Below are positions 28,609 through 34,218 of a stretch of DNA of 64,000 nt, piece after piece. The notes under the pieces are model-generated. The model searched no databases, had not been told where the DNA came from, and saw only the letters and a program-made list of their open reading frames with translations. Source of the stretch: Haloarcula rubra (GTDB lineage Archaea; Halobacteriota; Halobacteria; Halobacteriales; Haloarculaceae); assembly GCF_019599465.1 (NCBI RefSeq), contig NZ_RKLR01000004.1, positions 62,001-126,000 on the forward strand, read 5' to 3'. The translations under genes and the position numbers were made by a program. The first letter of the stretch is position 1. Each line of letters opens with the position of its first letter.

Positions 28609-30129
28609 ATGCTCGACCAGTTGGTTCGCCGAGTGCAGACGTTACTCGTGCGCGCCCGTCGGGTCGAGCGCCGTGAACTGCGGGAGTTCCGCCGGTGGGC
28701 CGAGACGACGGACCGCGTCGTCCACCTCTCGATGCTCGTGTTCGTCCCGTTGCTCATCGCCCTCGTGACGGCCCTCGCCAACGCCGTCCCGCGACTGACG
28801 TTCCTGCTGTTCCCGCCGCTGGCGTCGGGGACCTACACGCTGTTCGTCGACCCGACGGCGAAGTACTCCGACCCGAAACGGTTCGTCGCCGGTCTCACTA
28901 TCGGCGCCGTCTGTGGCCTCGGCGCGCTCGACCTGTCGAGCGTCCTGCTCGCGCCACCGACCGGCCAGTTCGCGGTCAGCGCCACCGCCGCCGGTCTCGC
29001 GGTGCTTGCGACCGGTCTGGTGACGTGGCCGCTCGACATCGAGGAACCGTCGTCGTACTCGACGGCGCTGCTGGCGTTGCTGGTCCAACCGAACCAGCAA
29101 CTCGTGTTCGTCGGGAGCATCTTCCTCGCGAGTGCGCTGGTCGCCAGCGTCTTCGTCGTCTGGCGGGACCGGTTCTACGAGCGACGCGCGACGTACCTGT
29201 ACGAGTCGACGACCGGCGACGACCACGTGCTGGTGCCGATGCGGGGCGAGACGGCGGGCCGGACGGCGATGCTTGGCGCTCGTCTCGCGGCCGCACACGA
29301 GGCCAGCAAGGTCGTCTTGCTCGACATGGTCTCCGACTCGGACGCCGCGGCGACGGAGCGCGAACTCCTGCAGGACACCGTCAAACTCGACATGTTCTCC
29401 GAGACCGACACCGACGCGTCGAACGCGAACCGGACCGAGTCCACGGCCGCCGTCTTCGGCGACGGCGGGAGCGTCGACGCGGAGACGACGGAGGCGGCCG
29501 ACTTCGACGCACAGGTGGACTGGCTGGAGACCCACGCCGCGCGCATCGAGACGCGGACCGGCGTCCCGTGTCAGGTCGTCGTCGCCATCGACGACGGCAA
29601 TCCGGCGGCGACGACGCTCCAGACGGCCGCCGAGACCAACTGCGACCTCGTCGTCGCGCCCTACGAGAGCGAACACGGCGCGCTGTCGCCGTATCTCAGA
29701 CGGTTGTTCCGGGGGAACACCGACGTACTCGTCCACCGCTCGCGTGCCGAGCGGAGCCAGTGGAAACGAGTGCTCGTGCCGGTCCGTCGCACCAGCGACG
29801 TGGCCCACAACATGGTCGACTTCGCGACCCGACTGGCGGGCAAGAGCGGCCGGGTCGCCGTCGCGACGTGCATCGGCGAGTCGCAGAACCGCCGGCGGGC
29901 CGAGGAGATGCTCGCCGACCTCGTGGAACCGTTCGACGGTGCCATCGAGACGCGCGTCTCCCGGGCGGACATCAACGAGTTCCTCGCCACGACGGGGTCG
30001 CAGTACGACCTCGTCGTCATCGGGGCCAGTCAGGACCGGAGTGCCGCGTCGCGGTTCGTCTCACCGCCGACGTTCGAGCGGTTGGAAGACGTCGAGACGG
30101 ACGTGGCTATCGTCGACCGAAGCCACTAG
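28609..30129 (+). CDS. HPP-family membrane protein fused to tandem UspA domains
   Basis: 506 residues. Residues about 35-185 hold an HPP-type bundle of four to five membrane helices (FLLFPPLASGTYTLFVDPTAKYSDPKRF, quoted in pieces: FLLFPPLASGTYTLF and VDPTAKYSDPKRF). Two universal-stress-protein domains follow in the cytoplasm, about 200-370 and 380-505. The first has an acidic insertion and ends LVVAPYESEHGALSPYLRRLFRGNTDVLVHR, the second ends LVVIGASQDRSAASRFVSPP, each near the usual UspA nucleotide-loop position. The gene ends tail-to-tail with a K+ channel gene, sharing bases of the stop codons (CTAG). I infer a membrane stress sensor or transporter linked to the adjacent K+ genes. Confidence 0.87.
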   Translation: MLDQLVRRVQTLLVRARRVERRELREFRRWAETTDRVVHLSMLVFVPLLIALVTALANAVPRLTFLLFPPLASGTYTLFVDPTAKYSDPKRFVAGLTIGAVCGLGALDLSSVLLAPPTGQFAVSATAAGLAVLATGLVTWPLDIEEPSSYSTALLALLVQPNQQLVFVGSIFLASALVASVFVVWRDRFYERRATYLYESTTGDDHVLVPMRGETAGRTAMLGARLAAAHEASKVVLLDMVSDSDAAATERELLQDTVKLDMFSETDTDASNANRTESTAAVFGDGGSVDAETTEAADFDAQVDWLETHAARIETRTGVPCQVVVAIDDGNPAATTLQTAAETNCDLVVAPYESEHGALSPYLRRLFRGNTDVLVHRSRAERSQWKRVLVPVRRTSDVAHNMVDFATRLAGKSGRVAVATCIGESQNRRRAEEMLADLVEPFDGAIETRVSRADINEFLATTGSQYDLVVIGASQDRSAASRFVSPPTFERLEDVETDVAIVDRSH

Positions 30130-31292
30130 ATGTCGGCTTCGTCCTCGCGTTCGATGTCCAGCAGGTGGTCCGCGATGTTCTCCATGCCCTCGCGTCCCAG
30201 CGCCGACTGGACGAGGAGGTGACCGCCTATCTGTGCGGGACTGATGACGGTGCTCGCGCCCGCCCGCCGGAGTTTCTCGATGTTCTCCCGCTCCGTCGCG
30301 GCGGCGACGATGTTGAGGTCGGGGTTGATGCTGTGGGCGGTCAGAATCGACAGTGCGTCCTGCGCGTCGTCGTTGGTGGCCGCGACGGCCGCCCGGGCGT
30401 CGTCGATGCCGGCCCGCTGGAGCGGTTCCTCGTCGCTCGGGTCGGCGGTCAGCACCGCGATGTCCCGTTGCTGGAGGCGCGCCGCCGTCTCGGAGTCGGG
30501 CGTGATGACGACGAAATCCGTCGCGCCGACGAGTTCTTCGATTATCGGTTCTGTCAGGTCGCCGTAGCCCAGAACCACCACGTGGTTCTCGAGCAAGTCG
30601 AGTTGTGCGTCAGTCATGTTCCCGAGTACCTCCGCGAAGCGCTTCTCGAGTGCCGGGCCGAGCAGGGACCCCAGCGCGATGGCGAAACTGGCCGTCCCCA
30701 GCACGACGACGGACATGCCGAACAGCGTCGCCCGTTCGCTCACCGGCGTCACGTCGCCGTAGCCGACGGTGCTGGCCGTGACGAGCGTGTAGTAGAACGC
30801 GTCGGTGAGCGTCTCGACGTTGACGAACTCCTCGCGGAGCGCCCACGTCCCGACGGTGCCGTACACCTGTGCGCCCAGCAGGGCCGCCCCCGCCGCGAGT
30901 TGCGTCGTCGAGAGGTCCAGTTTCCGGTCGAACCGCCGGCGGTTCAACAGCACCGTCGGCAGCGACACCAGCGAGAGGACGACCAGCGGCAGGGAGAGCG
31001 GCGAGGACTGCACCACGCCCTGCAGCGCCGACACCGGGAGCAACACGACGGTCACGTACCACGCGATGCGTAACCGCCGGCGGAGCCCGAAGACGCTCAG
31101 GAGCAGCGAGAACCCTGTCAGCGCACCCGTGAAGCCGGCTGCCTGCTGCAGGCTCTCGGGAACGGCGGTGCCGAGTATCCCGCTGATGGGGGCGGTGATG
31201 TTGGCGACGCCCGTCGCGAACGACAGCACGGCTACCAGCGTCGGCAGCAGTATCGTCGCCCGCGCCCCCAACCACTCCCGCGACCAGTGCAT
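30126..31292 (-). CDS. Potassium channel with RCK_N (TrkA-N) domain
   Basis: 388 residues. Hydrophobic segments near 12-32, 52-72, 76-95, 98-116 and 130-150 precede a pore loop with selectivity filter TVGYGD (175-180, TASTVGYGDVTP) and the last helix (188-215). From residue 237 an RCK_N/TrkA-N Rossmann domain starts: HVVVLGYGDLTEPIIEELV, with the third Gly of GxGxxG replaced by Thr, then FVVITPDSETAARL and VLTADPSDEEPLQRAGI. The protein ends soon after GGHLLVQSALGREGMENIADHL, with no RCK_C domain. The ATG at 31292 lies about 29 bases after a TACATTTAC box. It is divergent from two genes that do carry RCK_C-like domains. Confidence 0.92.
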   Translation of the reverse strand: MHWSREWLGARATILLPTLVAVLSFATGVANITAPISGILGTAVPESLQQAAGFTGALTGFSLLLSVFGLRRRLRIAWYVTVVLLPVSALQGVVQSSPLSLPLVVLSLVSLPTVLLNRRRFDRKLDLSTTQLAAGAALLGAQVYGTVGTWALREEFVNVETLTDAFYYTLVTASTVGYGDVTPVSERATLFGMSVVVLGTASFAIALGSLLGPALEKRFAEVLGNMTDAQLDLLENHVVVLGYGDLTEPIIEELVGATDFVVITPDSETAARLQQRDIAVLTADPSDEEPLQRAGIDDARAAVAATNDDAQDALSILTAHSINPDLNIVAAATERENIEKLRRAGASTVISPAQIGGHLLVQSALGREGMENIADHLLDIEREDEADI

Positions 31293-31316
31293 ATCTGCTC
31301 TGTGTCGATGGGGTGG

Positions 31317-31328
31317 TGTAAATGTACT
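31317..31328 (-). promoter_or_regulatory. TATA-like box of the K+ channel gene
   Basis: GTACATTTACAC on the minus strand, centred about 30 bases before the ATG at 31292. It shares ATTTAC followed by CCACC-like bases with the divergent promoter at 31371, suggesting common control. Confidence 0.5.
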
Positions 31329-31370
31329 GTCCCGGACTCGCCGCGACGAGGCCGGGATGCATCGTCGGAA

Positions 31371-31380
31371 GCGATTTACC
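31371..31380 (+). promoter_or_regulatory. TATA-like box of the first TrkA_C membrane gene
   Basis: GCGATTTACC, 28 bases before the ATG at 31403, followed by ACCGGG. It mirrors the ATTTACACCACC arrangement of the divergent K+ channel promoter. Confidence 0.5.
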
Positions 31381-31402
31381 ACCGGGCGCGCACGGTGGGG
31401 AC

Positions 31403-32626
31403 ATGGCTTCGCTCCCAATCGAGATTCTCTTGGGCATCTATCTGGGGTTGCTGGTCGGGGTCATCCCGGCGCTGGCGTCGTGGGCACTCGGGTTCGGCTT
31501 CAAGTATCTCACCGGCGTCACCCTCCCGGGGTTCGCCGTCGCCGTCCTCGCGATAGCGCTGGCGGGCGTCAGCGGCGGGTTGCTGGCGCTGGCCGACGAG
31601 TCCATCACGCAGGCACCCAACGCCGAGCGGATAATCACCGCCATCGTCCTCGTCGGGATGGTGTCGATGTACGCCCACAGCAAGGGCGACCAGATGGGGA
31701 CGACGTTCCCGAAACGGCTCTCGTTGCAGGGGCTCCGGGACAGGACGCTCTCGGCCGACGTGGTCGAACGGTTCGGTGGGCGCGACGAGGTGCGCATCCG
31801 CGTCGTCGGCGAGGTGGCCGACATGGAGGGGTACCCGCCGCTGTCGGAACCGCTCCGGGCCGAGATTCGGGGCGGCGAGTGGACGTTCCCCGCCGACCTC
31901 CGCATCGGCGAACTCGAAGCGGAGCTGGAGACGCGACTGAAGACGGAGTTCGACCTCGGCGACGTGGCCGTGACCATCGACGAACAGGGGCAGGCCAGCG
32001 TCGTCGCCGCGCCGCCGTTCTCGGGACTCTCGAAGCGGGTCACCGACGGGCGACACGCCGTCTCCGTCGACGCACTCCTGCCGACGGGACTGGCGCGAAA
32101 CGACGAGGTGACGGTGCTGACGACGGACGCGCAGGTCCGGGGGACCGTCGTCAGCGCCCGGTCGAAGGGGTCGGAGGCGGGCGTCGAGGAACCCGAGGAC
32201 CCGGAACTCGCCGACGACGCCGAGACGCCCGCGGCGCCGGTGCACGCGCCGACGACCGACGGCGGCGAGGGGCGACTGACCATCGCAGTCAACCGGACGG
32301 ACGTCCAACCACTGCTCCGGAGCGAGTCGGCGAAGGTGGTCGTCGAGCCACGGGGCACCCGCCGCGAGTACGAACTCGTCTCCCTGCTCCGACGAGCGGG
32401 CAACCGTTTTCGACGGGTCACCGTCCGTGACGGCGGGGCGCTCGACGGGACGACGCTCGGCGACGCACGGGTCCGCGAGACGTACGGCGTCGCCGTCGTC
32501 GCCGTCCGCGAACAGGGTGGGTGGCGACTCGCGCCGCGGGGCGAGACCACCGTCGAGGCGGGCGAGGAACTGTACGCCGTCGGGCCACACGACGCCCTCG
32601 ACGCCTTCGTGGAGGCGGTCGCATGA
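31403..32626 (+). CDS. Membrane protein with C-terminal TrkA_C (RCK_C) domain, paralogue 1
   Basis: 407 residues. Three membrane helices in residues 5-100 (IEILLGIYLGLLVGVIPALASW, quoted as IEILLGIYLGLLVG and VIPALASW; the others at about 38-62 and 75-95). A middle cytoplasmic domain (about 115-255) contains RIGELEAELETRLKTEFDLGDV. A TrkA_C-type domain (about 310-405) has VTVRDGGALDGTTLGDARVRETYGV and TTVEAGEELYAVGPHDALDAF. A disordered acidic linker joins them. The long N-terminal extension starting at 31322 is rejected because the TATA box falls inside it. The stop overlaps the next gene's start (ATGA). Divergent from an RCK_N-only K+ channel, so it may supply its regulatory half. Confidence 0.85.
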   Translation: MASLPIEILLGIYLGLLVGVIPALASWALGFGFKYLTGVTLPGFAVAVLAIALAGVSGGLLALADESITQAPNAERIITAIVLVGMVSMYAHSKGDQMGTTFPKRLSLQGLRDRTLSADVVERFGGRDEVRIRVVGEVADMEGYPPLSEPLRAEIRGGEWTFPADLRIGELEAELETRLKTEFDLGDVAVTIDEQGQASVVAAPPFSGLSKRVTDGRHAVSVDALLPTGLARNDEVTVLTTDAQVRGTVVSARSKGSEAGVEEPEDPELADDAETPAAPVHAPTTDGGEGRLTIAVNRTDVQPLLRSESAKVVVEPRGTRREYELVSLLRRAGNRFRRVTVRDGGALDGTTLGDARVRETYGVAVVAVREQGGWRLAPRGETTVEAGEELYAVGPHDALDAFVEAVA

Positions 32627-34218
32627 CGGCGTTACAGAGCGGCATCGTCCTGCAGGGCGGTCTGCGGACGGACGACCCGATAGTGCTCGGTGCACAGTTG
32701 CTCGGCATCGGCATCGCCGCCGCCGCGGCCGCCGGGTCGGTGGCGATGGCGTACCGCTGGTACGTCCGCGAACGCGTCCCGACGGGGCTGGGCGTCCTCT
32801 TCGGTCTGAGCGCCGTCGCCCTGTACCTCGGGACGACGGGTGCGCTCGGCGACGTCATCCTCGGGCAGGAGCAGGTGCTGCAGTCGAGTAGCGTCCTCCC
32901 GAACCTCGCCGCCTTCGCCGTCGGCGGGGCCGCCGCACTGACCGGGACGAAGGTCGGCGATAGGCTCGGGACCGACCTCTTCGCCGCGACCGGCGGCCGA
33001 AACGTCGACGCGGACGTGAGCGAAATCGTCCAGACGGTCGGGCGGGTCACGTCGGTCACGCTCCCCGCAGAGATAGACGACATCGTCGGCTACGACCCGA
33101 TGCCCGACGCGACCAAAGAGCAACTCGCCGAGCGGCGGTTCCTCTTCCCCCGACGGCTGACGAAGGGTGAACTCCGGGACCGCCTCGTCACGCGGCTCAA
33201 GACCGACTACGGCGTCGGTCACGTCGACGTCGAGTTCGACGACGGCGAGGTGTCGTATCTCGCCGTCGGGTCCCGTGCGGCCGGTATCGGTCCGACGCTG
33301 CCGCCGTCGACCAACGCCGTCGCGATTCGGGCCGACCCCGCACACGCCGCGAGTTCCGGCGACCTCGTGCAGGTGTGGGAGCGAGAGCCGCTGAAGCGGG
33401 TTCTCACCGGCGAACTCCGGGGCATCGCCGACGAGGTGGTGACCGTCGCCATCGACGCGGCGGACACCCCGAAACTCGACCCGACGGCGACGTACAAACT
33501 GGTCACGCTCCCGGTGCAGGACCGGCCCGATCGGGAGTTCGCCTCGCTGTTGCGGGCCGCCGACGAGACGATGGACACCGTCACCGTCGAGGCGGGCAGC
33601 GACCTCGTCGGGACCACCGTCGGGAGTCTGGGCGTGACCGTCGCGGCTATCACCCGCGACGACGCGGCCCCGGAGACGATTCCCTCCCGCGAGCGCGTCC
33701 TCGCGGCGGGTGACGTGATTTACGCCATCGCCACGCCCGACGCCCTGCGCCGTATCGAGACGGCCGGGACGGGGACGGGCGAGGACGCGTCGTCGGGTGG
33801 CGAGACACCACAGCGACCCGCCGCCGAGGACGGGCAGGCAGGGGCGTCCGTCGAGGGCGGGACCGACGCGACTCCCGTCGAGGACGGCCCGTCGGGCACC
33901 ACCGAACCGGCGGCCGACACCGACGAGAGCGAGCGTGGTCCCGACTCGCTCGAGGCCGACGACCGGAACGCGGCCGGGGGCCCGACGGACGACGACGCGG
34001 CCGAGGAGCGAGCGACCGACGCCCCGACGGACGCCCCGGCGGACGACACCATCCCGGTGTGGGACCCCGAGGAACACGTCGACGTGACCGAGGCTACCGA
34101 CGAGGGCGACGCGACCGACGGTGCCGACGCTGACCCCGACGCCGCGACCGACGACGAGGCCACCGCCGACGAGTCGACCGACGAGGACGGGGGCGGTCCC
34201 GACCGCGGCGGGGCGTGA
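32623..34218 (+). CDS. Membrane protein with TrkA_C (RCK_C) domain and long acidic tail, paralogue 2
   Basis: 531 residues with the same plan as the upstream gene: three membrane helices (about 22-42, 52-75, 88-108), a middle domain with LTKGELRDRLVTRLKTDYGVGHVDVEF matching LEAELETRLKTEFDLGDVAV in paralogue 1, and a TrkA_C-type domain (about 320-385) with AGSDLVGTTVGSLGVTVAAITRD and RVLAAGDVIYAIATPDALRRIE. Residues about 390-531 are a Thr/Glu/Asp-rich, probably disordered tail containing a DTIPVWDPEEHVDV segment that could bind a partner. Translation is coupled to paralogue 1 by an ATGA overlap. Confidence 0.83.
   Translation: MTALQSGIVLQGGLRTDDPIVLGAQLLGIGIAAAAAAGSVAMAYRWYVRERVPTGLGVLFGLSAVALYLGTTGALGDVILGQEQVLQSSSVLPNLAAFAVGGAAALTGTKVGDRLGTDLFAATGGRNVDADVSEIVQTVGRVTSVTLPAEIDDIVGYDPMPDATKEQLAERRFLFPRRLTKGELRDRLVTRLKTDYGVGHVDVEFDDGEVSYLAVGSRAAGIGPTLPPSTNAVAIRADPAHAASSGDLVQVWEREPLKRVLTGELRGIADEVVTVAIDAADTPKLDPTATYKLVTLPVQDRPDREFASLLRAADETMDTVTVEAGSDLVGTTVGSLGVTVAAITRDDAAPETIPSRERVLAAGDVIYAIATPDALRRIETAGTGTGEDASSGGETPQRPAAEDGQAGASVEGGTDATPVEDGPSGTTEPAADTDESERGPDSLEADDRNAAGGPTDDDAAEERATDAPTDAPADDTIPVWDPEEHVDVTEATDEGDATDGADADPDAATDDEATADESTDEDGGGPDRGGA

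Follow-up and report, generated by a model that had tools for sequence, protein, structure and literature searches.

RCK_C domains work mainly in potassium (K+) channels and transporters. Haloarchaea keep molar K+ inside, and the regulation of their K+ channels is little described. We analyzed a stretch of 64,000 nucleotides of Haloarcula rubra (assembly GCF_019599465.1, contig NZ_RKLR01000004.1, positions 62,001 to 126,000; hereafter the window), in which the gene of a Kch-like K+ channel lies divergent from those of two membrane proteins with RCK_C domains, MP1 and MP2. The closest described systems each share part of this composition. E. coli Kch is a channel of the six-helix type with a TVGYGD-type filter and an RCK_N but no RCK_C domain, and we know of no MP1- or MP2-like partner of it; its free RCK domains have been noted in a review (PMC4565861). 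In the Trk gating ring of T. maritima, the RCK_N and RCK_C domains of one ring are spread over two polypeptides, TM1088A and TM1088B (PMC4380455), and KhtT is a separate RCK_C subunit that binds cyclic di-AMP (c-di-AMP) and regulates the K+/H+ antiporter KhtU. Separate RCK_C subunits, split rings and channels with RCK_N only are therefore already known, and the claim of an earlier note on this DNA that no such system had been described was too strong. What appears new is the three-helix, membrane-anchored RCK_C pair; the literature that we searched, which held few subscription papers, contained no description of such a pair with a channel.

The channel and the two membrane proteins occupy the following positions of the window (RCK_N and RCK_C correspond to TrkA_N and TrkA_C in Pfam; fold comparisons were made on AlphaFold models; rmsd, root mean square deviation; pLDDT, predicted local distance difference test):

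30126-31292, minus strand: Kch-like K+ channel, 388 residues, with about six predicted membrane helices, a pore, RCK_N and no RCK_C (Ion_trans_2 and TrkA_N above the Pfam cut-off)
30753-30770, minus strand: selectivity filter TVGYGD, channel residues 175-180 (translation)
30237-30581, minus strand: channel RCK_N, residues 238-352 (Pfam; aligns to the RCK_N of MthK)
31293-31402, no strand: divergent intergenic region with both promoters (sequence)
31403-32626, plus strand: MP1, 407 residues, with three predicted membrane helices, an alpha/beta domain, a beta domain and RCK_C
32411-32614, plus strand: MP1 RCK_C, residues 337-404 (TrkA_C E 6.3e-14; VIA Z 13.2 to 2bko, rmsd 1.6, 78 residues aligned; VIA Z 12.9 to KhtT, 7ahm)
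32623-32626, plus strand: ATGA overlap of the MP1 stop and the MP2 start (sequence)
32623-34218, plus strand: MP2, 531 residues, with three predicted membrane helices, an alpha/beta domain, an RcpC-like beta domain, a shortened RCK_C and an acidic tail
33283-33516, plus strand: MP2 RcpC-like beta domain, residues 221-298 (VIA Z 8.4 to RcpC, 9gzr, rmsd 2.3, 78 residues aligned)
33580-33759, plus strand: MP2 RCK_C, residues 320-379 (TrkA_C E 3.7e-8; VIA Z 12.2 to 2bko, rmsd 2.0, 73 residues aligned)
33781-34215, plus strand: acidic, disordered C-terminal tail of MP2, about 145 residues (pLDDT below 50)

Both membrane proteins carry a true RCK_C domain. Against the Pfam gathering score of 27, TrkA_C reaches 52.1 bits in MP1 and 33.6 bits in MP2, and it is found at E 0.01 in all 49 MP1 orthologues and in 32 of 35 MP2 orthologues. 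The two proteins are paralogous over most of their length (hhalign 99.8%), and their AlphaFold models (mean pLDDT 83.7 for MP1 and 73.2 for MP2) contain three membrane-length helical stretches each. The view of the earlier note that they are paralogous three-helix proteins, divergent from the channel and joined by a real ATGA overlap, is thus borne out. Its further statement that both end in a TrkA_C-like domain is right for the presence of the domain in both, but not for the end of MP2, which continues into the acidic tail. Among 77 relatives MP2 is 385 to 730 residues long with a single exception, and its tail varies in length. Structural comparison returned matches for the RCK_C of MP1, and for the RCK_C of MP2 plus one RcpC. 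The membrane and alpha/beta parts were barely probed by this comparison, and neither protein has a Pfam match to TrkA_N, the fold search having hardly reached their middle domains. The beta domain of MP2 resembles in its fold the RcpC/CpaB proteins of Tad pili, but the likeness is confined to this one domain and no pilus system was seen in the genes that we read; Pfam matches to RcpC are weak, in two members of the MP1 family and one of the MP2 family.

MP1 and MP2 are a conserved, inseparable pair that has not yet been met outside haloarchaea. We followed them in two sets: the 80 best matching loci, which are biased to close relatives and of which several are clipped by contig ends, and an evenly drawn sample of 145 haloarchaeal genomes. 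An MP2 match lies beside MP1 in 79 of the 80 related loci; in the remaining one, L131, the score assigned the second match to MP1. The MP1 gene closes with (A/G)TGA in 75 of 80 cases, an ending that permits the 4-base overlap with MP2. Within the class sample MP1 occurs in 117 genomes, MP2 in 118 and the channel in 144. MP2 is present in all 117 genomes with MP1 and absent from 27 of the 28 without it; the exception, G149, has an MP2 fragment beside the channel (G149:C1:556797-557150). A scan of 197 genomes of the phylum returned MP1 matches in 27, all of them haloarchaea of one order, at a threshold of 1e-20 that distant relatives could escape.

After the association of MP1 with MP2 itself, the channel is the most frequent linkage: it lies on the same stretch in 75 of the 80 related loci, in one of them as a fragment only, and the space between channel and MP1 is almost always 71 to about 190 bases. 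Its adjacency is kept also in loci without the other neighbours, which among the 80 loci are a MoaD-like gene (65), udp (39) and an HPP-Usp gene (37). In the class sample, where a distance of up to 2.5 kb from the genome's best MP1 counts as adjacent, 99 of 117 genomes have the two side by side; they are divergent in 97 and share a strand in 2, where 56 bases separate them. Across haloarchaea the order of channel, MP1 and MP2 is therefore conserved, as the earlier note supposed. The two same-strand clusters (L026 5049-8675 and G044:C1:1955291-1958806), with channel, MP1 and MP2 all on one strand, likely form operons. Another locus (L033 6293-9078) holds degraded second copies of MP1, MP2 and the channel as fragments, all oriented alike; its genome has an intact set too. 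Divergent MP1-MP2 paralogue pairs of about 38% identity stand without a channel beside them in L030, L031 and L032, and genomes whose pair stands apart from the channel have the channel at another place.

The channel itself is predicted from its sequence to be complete in the manner of E. coli Kch, with a pore plus RCK_N. TrkA_N follows the pore (E 1.9e-28) and recurs in all 15 orthologues scanned, among which TVGYGD is invariant; no Pfam match to TrkA_C was found in the window protein or in these 15 orthologues, in agreement with the domain composition that had been read from the translation, and no RCK_C was found hidden at the C-terminus. In NCBIfam the channel scores best against NF007828, the model of E. 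coli Kch (E 1.8e-57), over channel residues 57-372 of 388 and model positions 75-385 of 403. Because the match reaches position 385 of 403, the Kch model has no space for an RCK_C, and the missing domain is nothing unusual for a Kch-type channel. Since the score of 195 bits lies below the equivalog cut-off of 425, which is passed in 1 of 14 control genomes, we call the channel Kch-like rather than a Kch equivalog. It also aligns with MthK across the pore and RCK_N (E about 1e-41), but MthK has its RCK_C on the same chain. Calcium gating of the MthK type was considered and rejected, as D184, E210 and E212, the residues of the MthK calcium site, align with A, A and T in the channel profile, and the RCK_C on the same chain is absent too.

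In a tree of 98 channels, the one nearest to the window channel belongs to Haloarcula pellucida (97% identity). The genome that holds the window encodes a second Kch-like channel on another contig (43% identical; G000:C1:3136-4239). The N-terminal membrane region of the channel (residues 15-167) matches the MprF flippase/synthetase model of NCBIfam (E 2.5e-8) and, with E values between about 3e-4 and 6e-4, structures of MprF, so a membrane module common to Kch-like channels and MprF is possible. Transcripts of a kch gene, possibly an orthologue of the window channel, rose with NaCl in Halorubrum kocurii (PMC9222508).

This channel persists where the pair is missing. It is present in 27 of the 28 genomes of the class sample that lack MP1, and in the 19 such loci that we read its end is like that of the window channel or is a low-complexity tail, and no compensating RCK_C was seen at its C-terminus. 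Many of these loci keep the order udp, HPP-Usp, channel and MoaD-like gene, in part or whole, minus MP1-MP2. In one of them (L151 9212-9355, genome G103) a 47-residue piece of MP2 remains beside the channel. By a quick method, the tree of 98 channels requires at least 9 changes between presence and absence of the pair, 8 of them forced by well supported branches; this count does not distinguish gain from loss. Loss is favoured over gain because of the MP2 relics and the gene position; the relics beside the channel are likely footprints of pair loss. As the channel persists without MP1 and MP2, and still without RCK_C, it does not need the pair.

We tentatively interpret MP1 and MP2 as an obligate membrane-anchored RCK_C pair that regulates the adjacent Kch-like channel as an optional accessory, a reading to which we give slightly under an even chance. 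It is favoured because both proteins carry RCK_C, MP1 and MP2 co-occur, and the channel is adjacent to them, including in same-strand clusters. Further reasons are the precedents of RCK_C acting in trans, KhtT and TM1088A/B, and a diadenylate cyclase (DAC) gene together with a link of c-di-AMP to osmoregulation. Building on the observed domains, pairing, linkage and channel independence, the mechanism would run as follows. In species that possess both proteins, MP1 and MP2 probably form a heterodimer through their RCK_C domains, and the intact RCK_C of MP1 probably senses a small ligand, for which c-di-AMP is one candidate. Through a putative physical contact, and with a presumed direction of effect, the pair would then act on the RCK_N or the membrane part of the channel, so that K+ flux is tuned to the osmotic state.

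By analogy, we prefer to compare the role of the pair with that of KhtT acting on KhtU. KhtT is the top Foldseek match of MP1, and its RCK_C too is a separate subunit; unlike MP1, it is soluble and regulates an antiporter, and the match is limited to the RCK_C. TM1088A and TM1088B likewise have RCK domains split over two neighbouring genes, the stop of one overlapping the start of the other (PMC4380455), but they are soluble and serve TrkH, and TM1088B has its own RCK_N, whereas MP1 and MP2 are anchored in the membrane and have RCK_C without an RCK_N match.

By profile and fold, the RCK_C of MP1 is nearest to the domains of KtrA, KtrC, KhtT, BusR, PH0236 and MthK, several of which bind c-di-AMP. 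Compared with the c-di-AMP pocket of BusR (PMC8517857), MP1 has identical residues at G353 and V357 and conservative ones at L352 and V365. MP2 shares the RCK_C fold of BusR and KtrA as well, but lacks part of the helix segment: the stretch that matches the BusR pocket, its ligand-helix segment, falls about 6 residues short of its MP1 counterpart in the alignment columns. The genome encodes a DAC domain (E 7.7e-20), and H. volcanii cannot do without c-di-AMP, which is implicated in its osmoregulation (PMC6741144). RCK or TrkA proteins are not mentioned in two papers on archaeal c-di-AMP (PMC6741144, PMC8646023). c-di-AMP is one candidate ligand of the MP1 RCK_C.

Several observations weigh against a regulatory pair of this kind. 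The pocket match is partial, as N157, H160, A164 and P181 of BusR align with R356, E359, V363 and G380 of MP1. In 18 of the 117 genomes the best MP1 is away from the channel, although one of these has a second, adjacent copy. The unrelated genes udp and MoaD-like are kept in the neighbourhood as well, so that conserved order alone is weak evidence. Finally, the channel occurs in 144 of 145 genomes; because it is nearly universal, the rule that MP1 implies the channel has little statistical weight, and we rejected their co-occurrence as proof of a link.

The explanation that survives best beside a regulatory pair, although we consider it rather unlikely, is that MP1-MP2 works on its own as a membrane sensor or a regulator of transport; it would share its location or its regulation with the channel, within one osmotic programme, and make no contact with it. 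The repeated survival of the channel without the pair agrees with this, the divergent promoters would allow co-regulation without contact, and the persistence of unrelated genes in the neighbourhood fits it too. So do the MP1-MP2 copies away from the channel, once beside a KhtTU-like pair: in this one haloarchaeal genome (L170 7985-9770), an Na_H_Exchanger gene and the gene of a 170-residue TrkA_C protein converge on MP1-MP2. It accounts less well for the channel being so frequent a neighbour and remaining one after same-strand rearrangement, and in L028, L032 and L085, where the pair is away from the channel, its immediate neighbours include no obvious transporter gene, as judged from translations only. 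Another transporter as constant partner of MP1-MP2 was rejected on these three loci, the KhtTU-like pair being near in one genome only.

A more specific form of the regulatory reading, that an RCK_C heterodimer of MP1 and MP2 docks on the channel RCK_N and gates it by a second messenger, possibly c-di-AMP, and that it is ancient in haloarchaea and was lost many times, strikes us as unlikely. If true, it would be the first archaeal auxiliary subunit of the integral-membrane RCK_C kind. It is improbable that the locus reflects merely an inherited haloarchaeal gene order with no functional link between channel and pair: udp and the MoaD-like gene, which have no evident functional tie, are indeed kept nearby, but the tight channel-MP1-MP2 unit, its two same-strand clusters and its persistence without the other neighbours speak against it. 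Least probable is the split channel of the earlier note, in which the RCK_C of MP1 and MP2 completes a gating ring without which the channel cannot gate: the gene with RCK_N does neighbour those with RCK_C, and split rings exist (TM1088A/B, PMC4380455), but a channel strictly requiring the pair is not supported, given the intact orthologous channels of the 27 genomes without MP1, the at least 8 supported state changes, the end of the E. coli Kch model at the same place, and the position of RCK_C here on membrane anchors, unlike known gating-ring subunits.

The MP1/MP2 pair beside the channel occurs in organisms with genetic tools (Haloferax, Haloarcula), and its repeated natural losses lend themselves to comparing one channel in the presence and in the absence of the putative regulators.

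The remaining features of the locus are two promoter boxes and a third gene:

31318-31323, minus strand: ATTTAC, a TATA-like box about 30 bases upstream of the channel ATG (sequence)
31374-31379, plus strand: ATTTAC, a TATA-like box about 28 bases upstream of the MP1 ATG (sequence)
28609-30129, plus strand: HPP-Usp fusion, 506 residues, with an HPP transmembrane region plus Usp domain(s) (TM_HPP and Usp above the Pfam cut-off)

Both divergent promoters had been said to carry ATTTAC plus CCACC-like boxes. ATTTAC is present on both sides, and a TTTA-type box recurs in most related loci at -28 to -30 of the channel and at -27 or -28 of MP1, but the CCACC box is not kept in relatives. A TATA box at such spacing constitutes the core promoter of haloarchaeal genes whose transcripts lack a leader. 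The shared boxes are mainly TATA boxes of this kind, and for this reason ATTTAC is no evidence of a shared operator. A conserved operator common to the two promoters was accordingly rejected, ATTTAC being TATA-like at most related starts.

The HPP-Usp fusion, recognised earlier as lying tail-to-tail with the channel, does so with a 4-base overlap (30126-30129) and is a frequent but not constant neighbour. Nucleotide sensing by its Usp part had also been proposed. The usual ATP motif, G-x2-G-x9-G-S/T, was not found when the translation of the window protein was inspected by eye, a weak kind of evidence on which we set ATP sensing aside; a loose pattern of the motif matches 9 of 36 HPP-Usp orthologues, away from the expected places. 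In two loci from which the channel is missing (L169 5478-8391 and L072 2349-5126), HPP-Usp lies directly upstream of MP1-MP2 and in the same direction.

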